A stretch of 64,000 nt of DNA from an uncultured Flavobacteriaceae bacterium (GTDB taxonomy: Bacteria > Bacteroidota > Bacteroidia > Flavobacteriales > Flavobacteriaceae). The notes beneath the pieces were generated by a model. It was not told the DNA's origin. It made no database searches and saw only the letters and a list, made by a program, of their open reading frames with translations. Made by a program: the position numbers and the translations under genes. Shown piece by piece: positions 725-5,134 of this stretch (the stretch's first letter is position 1; each line of letters begins with the position of its first letter). Location: assembly GCA_947500585.1 (NCBI GenBank), contig CANMSN010000004.1, forward strand, positions 1-64,000, given 5' to 3'.

Positions 725-726
725 AG

Positions 727-800
727 TGACCTCGACTGGATTCAAACCAGTAACCTCTTGAGCCGTAATCAAGTGCGCTATTCAGTTGCGCCACGAGGCC
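727..800 (-). tRNA. tRNA-Arg (anticodon ACG)
   Basis: On the minus strand a cloverleaf folds with acceptor stem GGCCTCG / CGAGGTC (one G-U pair), discriminator A, anticodon stem CTTGA / TCAAG around the loop TTACGGC (anticodon ACG), and a T arm containing GGTTTGAATCC. It is 74 nt long and CCA is not encoded. A TATATTTG promoter element lies just upstream and a strong hairpin just downstream, so it looks like a single-gene transcript. Confidence 0.95.
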
Positions 801-882: not shown

Positions 883-1512
883 ATGGATAAAGAATTATTA
901 CAAGAAAGATACAATCATATTCTAAGTAAAGACCTTATTAATGAAATATTTGAAATAGGGACTTTTAAAAAATTCAAAAAAAATGATATCATTATTGATA
1001 TTAATCAAACTCTACAATACATACCACTTTTATTATCTGGAAACATCAAGATTTTAAGAGAAGACAAAAATGGTAATGAACTACTCATATACTTTTTAGA
1101 AGCTGGAGAAACCTGTACCATGTCGCTTACCTGCTGTATGGGAACTACAAAAAGTAAAATTAGAGCAGTTGCCGAAAAAGATTCTAGTTTAGTCATGATT
1201 CCAGTCCAAAACATGCAAAAATGGTTTAATGAAAATGAAAGTTGGAGAAATTTTATTTTAGAAAGTTACCAAACGCGTTTTGATGAAATGCTTGATGCAA
1301 TTGACAATATAGCGTTTATGAAAATGGATGAACGCCTATATAAACACCTCATTAATAAAACTAAACTACATAATTCTAAAACGATAATAGTTAAGCATCA
1401 AGACATCGCTGAAGATTTACACACATCTCGTGTTGTCATTTCTCGATTATTAAAGCAGTTAGAAAATGATAATAAAATTATATTGAGCCGAAACAAAATT
1501 CAGGTTCTATAA
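883..1512 (+). CDS. Crp/Fnr-family transcriptional regulator, probable sulfur-stress sensor
   Basis: A 209-residue regulator. Residues 20-120 form the cyclic-nucleotide-binding-type beta barrel; residues 150-205 form a Crp winged helix-turn-helix (DIAEDLHTSRVVISRLLKQL). The barrel carries three clustered cysteines, C78, C84 and C85 (ETCTMSLTCCM), where cAMP-binding members keep an RxA phosphate cassette; a thiol or persulfide switch is a reasonable inference. The ATG at 883 is preferred over an in-frame TTG at 877 because the TTG overlaps the -7 element. It heads the sulfur genes that follow on the same strand, and a perfect Crp/Fnr-type palindrome lies at 3346. The family is certain; the sensing mode is inferred. 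Confidence 0.85.
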   Translation: MDKELLQERYNHILSKDLINEIFEIGTFKKFKKNDIIIDINQTLQYIPLLLSGNIKILREDKNGNELLIYFLEAGETCTMSLTCCMGTTKSKIRAVAEKDSSLVMIPVQNMQKWFNENESWRNFILESYQTRFDEMLDAIDNIAFMKMDERLYKHLINKTKLHNSKTIIVKHQDIAEDLHTSRVVISRLLKQLENDNKIILSRNKIQVL

Positions 1513-1571
1513 GTAACATTTATTACAAAGTTTAAAATAGCTAGCTTTACATTTACACAAAAATAAAATTT

Positions 1572-2129
1572 ATGGACTATATTTTAAATCCATGGCCTTG
1601 GTATGTTTCTGGGCCATTAATTGCCTTAGTTATGGCACTACTCCTTTATTTTGGTAAAACTTTCGGAATGTCATCAAATCTAAGAACATTTTGCGCTATT
1701 GGTGGTGCTGGAAAGTTTTCCAACTTTTTTAAATTTAATTGGAAAAACCAATCATGGAATTTAATAGTAGTACTAGGAGCCATTATTGGTGGTTTTATAG
1801 CAACACAATTTTTATCAAATGACAGTATTTCAGATTTAAATCCAGACACAGTAACTGAGCTTCAAAATATGGGGTTTGAAAATGCAGGTGCTACTTTAGT
1901 TCCTAATGAAATGTATAATATAGAAGCAATTACCTCAACTGGTGGTTTATTACTTTTAATTATTGGCGGACTTTTAGTTGGCTTTGGAACACGATATGCT
2001 GGCGGTTGTACATCTGGACATGCTATTACCGGACTTAGTAGTTTACAAAAACCATCTTTAATTGCTGTTATTGGTTTTTTTATTGGCGGATTAATTATGA
2101 CGAACTTTATTTTACCCTTAATTTTTTAA
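1572..2129 (+). CDS. YeeE/YedE-type sulfur transporter, first half-protein
   Basis: A 185-residue inner-membrane protein with about four to five hydrophobic segments. The motif YAGGCTSGHAITG (C146, H150) is the signature of YeeE/YedE (Sulf_transp) proteins, in which the Cys lies in the thiosulfate path of the full-length transporter. This protein carries only half of the full-length fold; the next gene supplies the other half. It starts 59 bp after the Crp/Fnr gene and ends 2 bp before the next ATG, so the run is probably one operon. Likely role: passage of thiosulfate or another reduced sulfur species. The substrate is inferred from family and neighbours. Confidence 0.85.
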   Translation: MDYILNPWPWYVSGPLIALVMALLLYFGKTFGMSSNLRTFCAIGGAGKFSNFFKFNWKNQSWNLIVVLGAIIGGFIATQFLSNDSISDLNPDTVTELQNMGFENAGATLVPNEMYNIEAITSTGGLLLLIIGGLLVGFGTRYAGGCTSGHAITGLSSLQKPSLIAVIGFFIGGLIMTNFILPLIF

Positions 2130-2131
2130 AA

Positions 2132-2545
2132 ATGAAGTATTTAAAATTTTTATTAGTTGGTGTTTTTTTCGGAATTGTATTAGTAAAATCTGAAGCTGTA
2201 TCATGGTATCGTATTTACGAAATGTTTAGATTTCAATCGTTTCATATGTATGGCATTATTGGAACCGCTGTTGCATCAGGTATTTTGTTTTTACAAATCT
2301 CAAAGAAAGGTTATATTAAGAGTATTAAAGGCGCTGATATTTTTGTTCCCAAAAAAGACAATGGCCTAATTAGATATATTGTAGGTGGTACAATTTTCGG
2401 ATTTGGTTGGGCACTAGTTGGTGCTTGTCCTGGCCCAATGTATATATTATTAGGAACTGGAGTTTATAGTATACTAATTGTAATAGGCGCAGCTATTTTA
2501 GGTACATTTTTATATGGTATTTTAAAAGACAAACTACCGCACTAA
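2132..2545 (+). CDS. YeeE/YedE-type sulfur transporter, second half-protein (DUF6691-like)
   Basis: A 137-residue membrane protein with about four hydrophobic segments. The block FGFGWALVGACPGPMYILLG, with C99, is the counterpart of the GCTSGH motif in the preceding gene. Pairs of half-size YeeE/YedE proteins encoded side by side are common in Bacteroidota and Proteobacteria and probably assemble into one transporter. It lies 2 bp from the gene before it and 1 bp from the gene after it, which suggests translational coupling. Substrate not shown by sequence. Confidence 0.83.
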   Translation: MKYLKFLLVGVFFGIVLVKSEAVSWYRIYEMFRFQSFHMYGIIGTAVASGILFLQISKKGYIKSIKGADIFVPKKDNGLIRYIVGGTIFGFGWALVGACPGPMYILLGTGVYSILIVIGAAILGTFLYGILKDKLPH

Positions 2546-2546
2546 C

Positions 2547-3338
2547 ATGGATAACACGCAACTTTTAGGGTATATTGGAGCGCTTATCGTCGGATTAGTT
2601 TTAGGACTTATAGGTGGTGGTGGTTCTATATTAACAGTGCCTTTATTAGTATATCTATTAGGTTACAATCCTGTAGTTGCCACAGCTTATTCTTTATTTG
2701 TAGTTGGCACTTCTTCTCTAGTAGGCTCATACCAAAAGTATAAAAAAGGATTAGTTGATTTTAAAACAGGTATAGCCTTTTCATTTCCATCCTTTATTGC
2801 AGTTTATCTATCTAGAAGATATTTAGTTCCTGGTATTCCAGAAACACTTTTTAATATTGGTGATTATACATTAACCAAAGGAATGGCTATCATGATTTTC
2901 TTTGCGATTATTATGTTTTTATCGTCTTATTCGATGATAAAAAACAGGAAAGACAAAGAAATAAATACCAAAGCGCAACCTTATTATAAAACATTCATTC
3001 AAGGATTAATAATAGGGACCATTACAGGGCTTATTGGTGCTGGTGGTGGCTTTCTATACGTTCCTGCTTTAGTACTTTGGGCTAATATTCCTATGAAAAA
3101 AGCAGTAGGAACCTCATTAATCATTGTTACTATAAACTCTTTAATAGGTTTTATGGGTGATGTGCAAACTCTAGATATAGAGTGGTTTTTTCTACTAACG
3201 TTTACATTAATTTCAATTATTGGAATTATTTTGGGTATATTTCTATCAAAATTTATAAGTGGAGAAAAACTAAAAAAGAGCTTTGGAGTTTTTACTCTAA
3301 TTATGGCTATATATATCATTTACAAGGAAGTAAACTAA
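2547..3338 (+). CDS. Sulfite exporter TauE/SafE family permease
   Basis: A 263-residue polytopic inner-membrane protein with the internal duplication of the TauE/SafE family. The first half carries LIGGGGSILTVPLLVYLLG (about 20-39); the second carries LIGAGGGFLYVPALVLW followed by KKAVGTSL. The family moves sulfite, sulfoacetate and other small organosulfur anions, usually outwards. It is the third membrane gene of the module and ends just before the Crp/Fnr-type palindrome, so it probably exports the sulfite made by the downstream dioxygenase. Export direction and substrate are inferred. Confidence 0.88.
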   Translation: MDNTQLLGYIGALIVGLVLGLIGGGGSILTVPLLVYLLGYNPVVATAYSLFVVGTSSLVGSYQKYKKGLVDFKTGIAFSFPSFIAVYLSRRYLVPGIPETLFNIGDYTLTKGMAIMIFFAIIMFLSSYSMIKNRKDKEINTKAQPYYKTFIQGLIIGTITGLIGAGGGFLYVPALVLWANIPMKKAVGTSLIIVTINSLIGFMGDVQTLDIEWFFLLTFTLISIIGIILGIFLSKFISGEKLKKSFGVFTLIMAIYIIYKEVN

Positions 3339-3345
3339 TTTTTAA

Positions 3346-3361
3346 TGTGACAAAAGTCACA
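3346..3361. promoter_or_regulatory. Crp/Fnr-type operator palindrome
   Basis: TGTGACAAAAGTCACA has two perfect 6-base arms (TGTGAC / GTCACA) and matches the general Crp-family pattern TGTGAnnnnnnTCACA. It lies between the TauE stop codon and the -7 element at 3383. Its centre is about 42 bp before the expected start of transcription, the class II activator position. The obvious ligand is the Crp/Fnr protein encoded at 883-1512; that link is inferred. Confidence 0.75.
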
Positions 3362-3382: not shown

Positions 3383-3390
3383 TATTTTTG
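3383..3390 (+). promoter_or_regulatory. -7 promoter element for the persulfide dioxygenase gene
   Basis: TATTTTTG is a perfect TAnnTTTG match, 22 bp downstream of the Crp/Fnr-type palindrome and 53 bp before the start codon. The leader between them contains a small hairpin, ATTCCC with GGGAAT, around 3409-3427. Confidence 0.7.
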
Positions 3391-3442
3391 AAAAAATAAT
3401 TAAAAACGATTCCCACTTCTAGGGAATGACAAAAATAACACG

Positions 3443-4855
3443 ATGCGAATAGAACAAATATATACAGGATGTTTAGCTCAAGGCGCTTACTATATTGAAT
3501 CTGATGGTGAAGTTGCTATTATAGATCCTTTGCGTGAAACGCAACAATATGTAGATAAAGCAGCTAAAGAAAATGCAAAAATCAAATATATTTTTGAGAC
3601 TCATTTTCATGCAGATTTTGTTTCAGGACATGTTGATTTGGCAAAAAAAACTGGAGCAACTATTATTTTTGGTCCTGGAGCTGAAACAACATACAATATA
3701 CATTCGGCAAAAGATAACGAGGTATTCAAATTGGGTAATGTGTCTATTAAAGTACTACATACACCTGGGCATACTTTAGAATCTTCAACCTACCTTTTAC
3801 TTGATGAAAACAGAAAAGAACACGCTATATTTTCAGGAGACACACTATTTTTAGGTGATGTTGGACGACCAGATTTAGCCATAAAATCAAACTTAACAAA
3901 GGAAGACTTAGCAAGCATGTTATTCGATTCTTTGCGTAATAAAATTATGCCTTTACCAGATGACGTAATTGTATATCCTGCACATGGCGCTGGTTCTGCT
4001 TGTGGCAAAAATCTAAGTAAAGAAACAATAGGTGTTTTAGGTGACCAGAAAAAAACCAATTATGCCTTAAGGCCAGATATGACTCGCGATGAATTTATAA
4101 AAGAAGTTTTAGATGGTATCGCTCCACCACCTCAGTATTTTGCTAAAAATGCTATGATGAATAAATCGGGTTATGATGCGTTTGAAACTGTTTTAAAGAA
4201 AGGAGATAATCCCTTAACGCCTGAAGCGTTTGAAGCTATTGCAAACCAAGAAGATGCCTTAGTTTTAGATGTTAGGCATGAAAAAGACTTTGTAAAAAGT
4301 CATATTCCGAATTCTATATTTATTGGAATTCATGGTGGTTTTGCCCCCTGGGTTGGTGCTTTAATAACCGATTTAAAACAACCTATTTTATTAATTACAC
4401 CCGAGGGAAAAGAAAAAGAAACCGTTACTCGATTATCTCGCGTGGGTTATGATAATACATTAGGTTATTTAGAAGGTGGTATTGCCGCTTGGAAAGCTGC
4501 TGGAAAAGATATTGAAACGATAGAGTCTATATCTGTTGATGACTTTTCTAAACATTTTAAAAATGAAAATATTAATATTTTGGATGTTAGAAAAGATGGT
4601 GAATATAAATCTGAACATCTAGAAGGTGAAAATGTACAGCATTTTGCATTAGATTATATAAATGACAATATGAATGCCATTGACAAAGACAAAAACTATT
4701 ACATTCATTGTGCTGGTGGCTATCGCTCTGTTATTGCCGCTTCAATTTTAAAAGCACGCGGGTTTAATAATTTAGTAGATATAGCTGGTGGATTTGGAGC
4801 TATTAAAAATAGCGATTTACCAACCACAGATTTTGTTTGTCCGACAACATTATAA
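3443..4855 (+). CDS. Persulfide dioxygenase-like MBL-fold protein with two rhodanese domains
   Basis: A 470-residue cytosolic fusion. Residues 1-250 are an ETHE1-like metallo-beta-lactamase domain with THFHADFVSGH (H54, H56, D58, H63), HTPGHT, FSGDTLFLGDVGRPDL and YPAHGAGSACG, the metal ligands of glutathione- or thiol-persulfide dioxygenases. Two rhodanese domains follow, about 265-355 and 365-465. The first has ITPEGKE in the active-site loop and lacks the catalytic Cys; the second has HCAGGYRS with C423 and should be active. The layout resembles CstB of staphylococci. Expected reaction: oxidation of a persulfide to sulfite or thiosulfate. It has its own promoter and the palindrome at 3346. 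The family call is firm; the exact substrate is inferred. Confidence 0.88.
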   Translation: MRIEQIYTGCLAQGAYYIESDGEVAIIDPLRETQQYVDKAAKENAKIKYIFETHFHADFVSGHVDLAKKTGATIIFGPGAETTYNIHSAKDNEVFKLGNVSIKVLHTPGHTLESSTYLLLDENRKEHAIFSGDTLFLGDVGRPDLAIKSNLTKEDLASMLFDSLRNKIMPLPDDVIVYPAHGAGSACGKNLSKETIGVLGDQKKTNYALRPDMTRDEFIKEVLDGIAPPPQYFAKNAMMNKSGYDAFETVLKKGDNPLTPEAFEAIANQEDALVLDVRHEKDFVKSHIPNSIFIGIHGGFAPWVGALITDLKQPILLITPEGKEKETVTRLSRVGYDNTLGYLEGGIAAWKAAGKDIETIESISVDDFSKHFKNENINILDVRKDGEYKSEHLEGENVQHFALDYINDNMNAIDKDKNYYIHCAGGYRSVIAASILKARGFNNLVDIAGGFGAIKNSDLPTTDFVCPTTL

Positions 4856-4864
4856 ATTATTAAA

Positions 4865-5134
4865 ATGAAAACTACGTTTGAAATACAAAATTTAAAATGT
4901 GGAGGTTATGCACATACTATTATTAATAAGCTGTCTCATATAGCGGATATTGAAAACATTACAGTAAATAACGAAAGTAATACCGTATCATTTACTTATT
5001 TAAATGATTCGGCTATTAAAAATTCAAAAAAATTACTGAACGAGATTGGATATCCCGTAGTTGGAGATAAAAACAATATAATTACTAAAGCAAAGTCTTA
5101 TGTGAGTTGTACTATTGGGAAGATTAACAACTAA
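4865..5134 (+). CDS. HMA-like small protein with half of the CxxC motif
   Basis: An 89-residue protein with the ferredoxin-like heavy-metal-associated pattern: a beta strand, then LKCGGYAHTIINKL, then VNNESNTVSFTY. In metal-binding relatives the motif is CxxC; here C12 is kept and the second position is Tyr15 (codon TAT, one base from TGT). Another Cys (C82) lies near the C-terminus. It starts 9 bp after the dioxygenase gene and probably shares its transcript. One Cys beside a rhodanese fits a sulfur- or metal-handling role, but this is a guess. Its stop lies 2 bp from the convergent clpS stop. Confidence 0.7.
   Translation: MKTTFEIQNLKCGGYAHTIINKLSHIADIENITVNNESNTVSFTYLNDSAIKNSKKLLNEIGYPVVGDKNNIITKAKSYVSCTIGKINN

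Follow-up and report, generated by a model that had tools for sequence, protein, structure and literature searches.

A conserved palindromic operator before persulfide dioxygenase genes of Flavobacteriaceae and its candidate Crp/Fnr-family regulator

Upstream of a gene for a persulfide dioxygenase-type protein, in a 64-kb stretch of DNA from an uncultured Flavobacteriaceae bacterium (the whole stretch that was analysed, hereafter the window), lies a perfect palindrome of Crp/Fnr type. The preliminary description of this DNA took the regulator encoded in the same cluster for the natural ligand of the palindrome, and both together for a local sulfur-stress switch. The locus thus raises the questions of whether the palindrome is a regulatory site at all, which protein would read it and to which signal that protein would respond. 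The features of the cluster are collected in Table 1.

Table 1. Coordinates of the sulfur gene cluster and its promoter elements in the window
Feature	Position	Strand	Basis or remark
Crp/Fnr-family regulator (cNMP-binding fold and HTH_Crp_2), recognition helix TSRVVISR	883..1512	+	PF00027, PF13545
Second operator AGTAACATTTATTACA, before the YeeE/TauE operon	1512..1527	+	centre at predicted -40.5; own-genome composite search; 54/66 loci
-7 box TACATTTA, YeeE operon promoter	1548..1555	+	predicted +1 at 1560
YeeE/YedE-like sulfur (thiosulfate) transport protein, first half	1572..2129	+	PF04143 Sulf_transp
DUF6691, YeeE-like second half	2132..2545	+	PF20398, PF04143
TauE/SafE sulfite exporter family protein	2547..3338	+	PF01925
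Operator TGTGACAAAAGTCACA	3346..3361	+	centre at predicted -41.5, class II position; sequence, genome search, relatives
Sigma-A -7 box TATTTTTG	3383..3390	+	21 nt past operator; placement per PMC9723704
Predicted transcription start, dioxygenase operon	3395..3395	+	from position of -7 box
Persulfide dioxygenase-type protein: metallo-beta-lactamase domain and two rhodanese domains	3443..4855	+	PF00753, PF00581
Small HMA-domain protein	4865..5134	+	PF00403; 3' neighbour in many relatives

The palindrome and its promoter context

Direct reading of the bases gives TGTGAC-AAAA-GTCACA, and the two exact six-base arms that had been described are present. In the whole 3.76-Mb genome the string has a single exact match, and one further match appears at one mismatch. 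In the transcription start map of Flavobacterium psychrophilum the TAnnTTTG box occupies -12 to -5 (PMC9723704); placing the box of the dioxygenase promoter likewise yields the start in Table 1, a predicted leader of 48 nt and a palindrome centre (3353.5) at -41.5, in agreement with the distance of about 42 bp proposed earlier. A -33 TTTG is absent upstream of this box. The HMA gene, which begins about 10 nt past the dioxygenase stop codon, is probably on the same transcript. Inside the predicted leader lies a perfect hairpin, ATTCCC-ACTTCTA-GGGAATGA (3409-3429); because an ATTCCC-type stretch occurs in the longer leader of several relatives and is absent in others, it looks like an inserted small repeat.

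The preliminary description had named conservation in orthologous promoters as one of two observations on which its case would stand or fall. We compared 80 loci with the closest dioxygenase relatives, taken from named genomes and aligned on the start codon. The palindrome occurs in most of them, at distances of 44 to 243 nt from the start codon, with the consensus [T]GTRAY-N4-RTYAC[A] followed 20 or 21 nt on by TAnnTTTG. When at most one mismatch was allowed in the core and one in the box, both elements were found before the dioxygenase gene in 69 of 81 orthologous promoters, compared with a null rate of about 0.0016 per promoter in shuffled promoters under the same rule. Exact cores on both strands of the 80 loci lie 21 nt from an exact box 65 times and 20 nt from it 12 times, with six scattered other distances up to 45, so that 77 of 83 core/box pairs keep the spacing of 20 or 21 nt. 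The flanking sequence diverges while site sequence, symmetry and spacing stay constant. Judged by this comparison, the palindrome is a real and widely conserved regulatory site.

Perfect symmetry is not essential to it: relatives keep only GTRAY-N4-RTYAC with variable outer bases, and the two perfect six-base arms proposed as the motif have to give way to this looser form. A relaxed 16-mer scan of the genome that disregarded the -7 box returned 7 matches against 9 in the reversed control and is uninformative alone; it is the promoter context, rather than the bare 16-mer, that discriminates true sites.

No other palindrome of this kind had been noticed near a promoter in the window. In its strict form this stands, as a pattern search of the 64 kb found no second match within two mismatches of TGTGACNNNNGTCACA. 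A site of the same type, asymmetric, is nevertheless present at the YeeE promoter. Its first base is the final base of the regulator stop codon, and it lies 20 nt from its -7 box in the own-genome composite search described below. It was probably missed before because its outer base is unpaired, with arms GTAAC/ATTAC. Of the 66 regulator-positive loci, 54 carry this site; the string is nearly identical in relatives, whose -7 box reads TACATTTG or similar. At the edge of the window a transposase DDE-domain gene (PF13612; 3-476, minus strand) is truncated, and a tRNA-Arg gene (726-800, minus strand) adjoins it, upstream of the regulator.

The neighbouring regulator and its predicted DNA recognition

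The regulator belongs to the Crp/Fnr superfamily, as both of its Pfam domains exceed the gathering cut-offs, and its AlphaFold2 model (pLDDT 87.6) has the CRP fold, with CRP/FNR chains filling the list of structural matches at Z scores of 16-17. It is neither a CRP nor an NtcA equivalog, scoring 44.4 bits against a cut-off of 266 (NF008732) and 43.3 bits against 244.95 (TIGR03697). The FNR signature of an N-terminal cysteine cluster and a Glu..SR helix does not apply, as the protein has no conserved N-terminal cysteines. With E. coli CRP it shares the fold, a site compatible with TGTGA-N6-TCACA and the class II position. Unlike CRP it carries GETCTMSLTCCM in place of the cyclic-nucleotide cassette (aligned by eye) and Val184 at the position of Glu181, and a small sulfur regulon stands against a global one.

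In CRP, Arg180 contacts G2 of the half-site, and Arg185 and Glu181 contact the fourth base pair (PMC11253593). R183, V184 and R188 of the regulator align with CRP R180, E181 and R185, and V184 is found in all but one of 109 regulator sequences. A valine here suits A or G (R) as the fourth half-site base, as in NtcA of cyanobacteria. NtcA, also of CRP fold, aligns over the recognition helix as TRV..TR with the same Val and binds GTA-N8-TAC at about -41.5 (PMC3898017), which the GTAAC-N4-GTTAC form of our motif matches. Unlike our regulator, it senses 2-oxoglutarate, controls nitrogen genes and has no linkage to sulfur genes.

Regulator homologues were found in 147 of the 198 genomes searched. 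In distant Flavobacteriaceae genera the gene order is regulator-TauE-dioxygenase, and the TauE and dioxygenase promoters usually carry the site. Presence of the site follows presence of the regulator in the close set (65 of 66 loci with it, 10 of 15 without it; p=0.0006) and in 80 regions of other genera (35 of 39 against 10 of 41; Fisher p=1.8e-9), p-values that are inflated by shared ancestry since the counts are phylogenetically non-independent. The lone regulator-positive exception, L057, has its site further upstream, just outside the 250-nt window that was used. Gene trees reduce the comparison to five well-supported independent contrasts for the dioxygenase and one for the DUF983 gene considered below, mostly in the predicted direction and too few for significance. 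Several Psychroserpens relatives that lack the regulator have degraded or altered sites, in line with expectation after its loss. Among Psychroserpens loci, the dioxygenase promoters of L085, L088 and L092 carry an altered palindrome of the type CTGAY-N4-RTCAG. A TSREVISR helix in paralogues of genomes G202 and G204 possibly points to a regulator swap.

Predicted targets beyond the cluster and homologues in other lineages

We searched the genome with a composite pattern of the core, 22 nt and TAnnTTTG. It has two exact matches, one at the dioxygenase and one (L257, C1:602425-602468) on another contig at a gene for a DUF983 membrane protein, not far from where a divergent ABC-F gene starts. Relatives have the DUF983 site as well: 22 of 26 genomes with the regulator carry it, against 1 of 15 without it (p=1.1e-6, with the same inflation). 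Since this gene is unlinked to the regulator, the correlation between site and regulator is no by-product of linkage, and a role of DUF983 in sulfide stress is suggested by its promoter. With one mismatch allowed, the composite scan of the genome gave no excess above control. The promoter of an ArsM-type methyltransferase gene (C13:65825, TGTAATATTTGTTACA) was considered as an extra target and dropped, as its site is not generally conserved in 13 relatives. The earlier proposal of the neighbouring regulator as natural ligand thus survives in the form of a candidate: the site follows the regulator, also at the unlinked DUF983 gene, the recognition helix fits, and this protein appears to be the best candidate binder of the palindrome.

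A search of 40 genomes that carry the regulator found the exact composite motif at 126 places and the reversed control pattern at 5. The larger groups among the sampled downstream genes, named by Pfam, encode TolC-type outer-membrane efflux proteins (17), the dioxygenase (12), YeeE (7) and thioredoxin (5), and the smaller ones TauE and cytochrome bd subunit I (3 each) and peroxiredoxin, DUF2892 and DUF983 (2 each). Also downstream of the motif are an SQR-like oxidoreductase (our interpretation of a Pyr_redox_2 protein), a sulfate permease, DsrE and a copy of the regulator itself. From its annotation, the motif-defined set is one of sulfide-defence and respiration-protection genes; some groups, e.g. 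aldehyde dehydrogenase, may be under other regulators. The proposed local sulfur-stress switch must therefore be modified: a second site does lie in the cluster, while the unlinked DUF983 gene and the wider regulon of the relatives make the system more than a local one, and its sulfur signal is read from the genes it would control.

Homologues outside the family have similar neighbours. In Paracoccus these are DUF2892, YeeE, DUF6691, dioxygenase, oxidoreductase and sulfate permease genes, with divergent cydAB and peroxiredoxin genes, and in Spirosoma TauE, dioxygenase and YeeE genes. The gene set of the motif-based regulon is thus recovered independently of the motif, in other lineages. Plasmid-borne homologues of Paracoccus, Thioclava, Thiothrix and Azospirillum have Glu at the V184 position, and these loci (L429, L430 on Paracoccus p1PARARS4, L431 and L432) carry GTGAC-N3-GTCAC or close variants before DUF2892. 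A palindrome like GTGAC-N3-GTCAC is also found in the peroxiredoxin/Rrf2 intergenic region of Paracoccus. The spacer of the Pseudomonadota sites is one base shorter than the flavobacterial N4. These few examples suggest a covariation between residue and base, Val going with A/G and Glu with G at the fourth half-site base. We see about an even chance that all these proteins form a cross-phylum Crp/Fnr subfamily in which the cassette became a C-x5-C(C) persulfide sensor. Such proteins would directly activate sulfide defence (dioxygenase, YeeE, SQR, cytochrome bd, peroxiredoxin, DUF2892 and DUF983), with a recognition residue that co-varies with the fourth base.

Proposed mechanism, alternatives and significance

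We consider it probable that the regulator is a class II activator acting at GTRAY-N4-RTYAC operators in response to persulfide-type stress. A dimer would bind operators whose centres lie 40.5 or 41.5 bp ahead of the start, in the place of a -33 element, and the bound regulator would recruit RNA polymerase. Activation would follow when persulfide or polysulfide modifies C78 and C84/C85, at the place of the cyclic nucleotide in CRP. In the source genome the targets would be the dioxygenase-HMA operon, the YeeE/YeeE/TauE operon and the DUF983 gene, to which the relatives would add cytochrome bd, a sulfide:quinone oxidoreductase-like enzyme, peroxiredoxin, DUF2892 and efflux genes. The target and the architecture are strongly supported; binding by the regulator, activation, signal and cysteine chemistry we infer.

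The signal is read from the company of genes and from the cysteines. Within the stretch that replaces the cassette of CRP, C78 is invariant and C84/C85 nearly so, and these are the only conserved cysteines of the protein. The AlphaFold2 model is least certain around them, at residues 81-90. Homologues from Pseudomonadota also have the C-x5-C pair, and so, at the same place, does the closest solved sequence relative (3dv8 from structural genomics; E=1e-25 with a profile), which we compared by sequence and which is described only as 'transcriptional regulator, Crp/Fnr family'. W/E replaces C84/C85 in three of the aligned homologues from the distant set. These are presumably L212, L215 and L222, order-level homologues of about 42% identity that lie near a dioxygenase gene whose promoter is without the site. 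Most likely the signal is persulfide, polysulfide or a related thiol-reactive sulfur species acting on C78 and C84/C85. It is possible, if clearly less probable, that a class II activator of the cluster responds instead to thiosulfate, redox state or oxygen, a metal or nitrosative stress. Any thiol chemistry would be open to the cysteines, and so would the coordination of a metal or cluster. The dioxygenase operon encodes an HMA protein, and the regulon of the relatives holds TolC-type efflux, thioredoxin, cytochrome bd and peroxiredoxin genes. Against this, conservation among the targets is strongest for the persulfide dioxygenase, YeeE and TauE, which the SQR-like enzyme and SulP join in some genomes, and the company of the Paracoccus homologue points the same way. 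A signalling role of YeeE-like proteins is known from another system (SoxT1B, PMC11582611), and one may speculate that the cluster could feed its own sensor. The Crp of A. baumannii has been reported to be persulfidated, with an effect that is not established (PMC7315123).

Activation is read from the position of the site and its fixed spacing: it lies near -41.5 of the predicted start, at an almost constant distance from the -7 box. That the regulator binds the site and represses, to be released by persulfide, seems unlikely. Such a role would have precedent in BigR, SqrR and CstR, which repress operons of this kind (PMC5823870; PMC9774590), and the -33 region, too, would lie beneath the site. 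Yet the 20-21 nt to the -7 box are kept almost throughout, at the class II activator position of NtcA and CRP, and no consensus -33 lies beneath the site. A -33 TTTG was found in none of 93 target promoters; we do not count this as proof of activation, since TTTG is rare in control promoters too and its lack is only mildly informative.

We regard it as quite improbable that the site is really bound by a different Crp/Fnr paralogue of CRP or FNR type, with the neighbouring regulator in control of something else. The genome encodes eight Crp/Fnr-type proteins, and the strict palindrome also suits the TGTGA-N6-TCACA of E. coli CRP. Moreover, the dioxygenase promoters of three Winogradskyella loci (L087, L094 and L097) keep TGTGAYAAATATCACA, or a sequence close to it, with the proper spacing, in genomes where we found no clear orthologue of the regulator, and seven further loci carry the site with no regulator adjacent. 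The arginine pair at the R180/R185 positions is, however, found in the 883-1512 regulator and in none of the other seven proteins, presence of the site tracks this regulator even where unlinked, and the A/G degeneracy of the motif suits its Val and not a Glu. Two of the paralogues (L331 and L332) are FNR-like, with N-terminal cysteines and a Glu in the recognition helix. A chance origin of the palindrome, or a terminator-like repeat with no part in regulation, might be suggested by its place between two co-directional genes in an AT-rich window, but is hardly conceivable given the null rate and the conservation amid diverging flanks.

Among the one-component regulators of such operons, those known to respond to persulfide fall into the ArsR, CsoR and Fis families (PMC9774590). 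The class II activator proposed here is a Crp/Fnr protein, outside these three families, and would have at most its kind of function in common with BigR/SqrR, CstR and FisR. BigR/SqrR of Xylella, Agrobacterium and Rhodobacter are likewise dedicated one-component regulators with conserved sensor cysteines, encoded beside a sulfur transferase or dioxygenase and a TauE-related exporter (PMC5823870). They are ArsR-family repressors, BigR acting on the -10 region, whereas here a Crp/Fnr protein would act at -41.5. FisR of Cupriavidus and Acinetobacter is an activator responsive to reactive sulfur with conserved cysteines (PMC9774590); it activates sigma-54 promoters, in contrast to the sigma-A promoters and CRP fold described here. 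In the open-access journal literature, to which our search was confined, we found no published Crp/Fnr persulfide regulator.

Operator and regulator most likely serve to protect marine Bacteroidota, and perhaps members of other phyla, against sulfide. If this is true, a gap would be closed for the Bacteroidota, major degraders of polymers at the sulfidic margin of marine systems: they would have an activator of Crp/Fnr type that possesses an operator of its own, a defined regulon and an invariant cysteine. Membership in the regulon would give a function to YeeE/DUF6691, DUF983 and DUF2892 genes, and the regulator would show how a cyclic-nucleotide pocket can become a thiol sensor.
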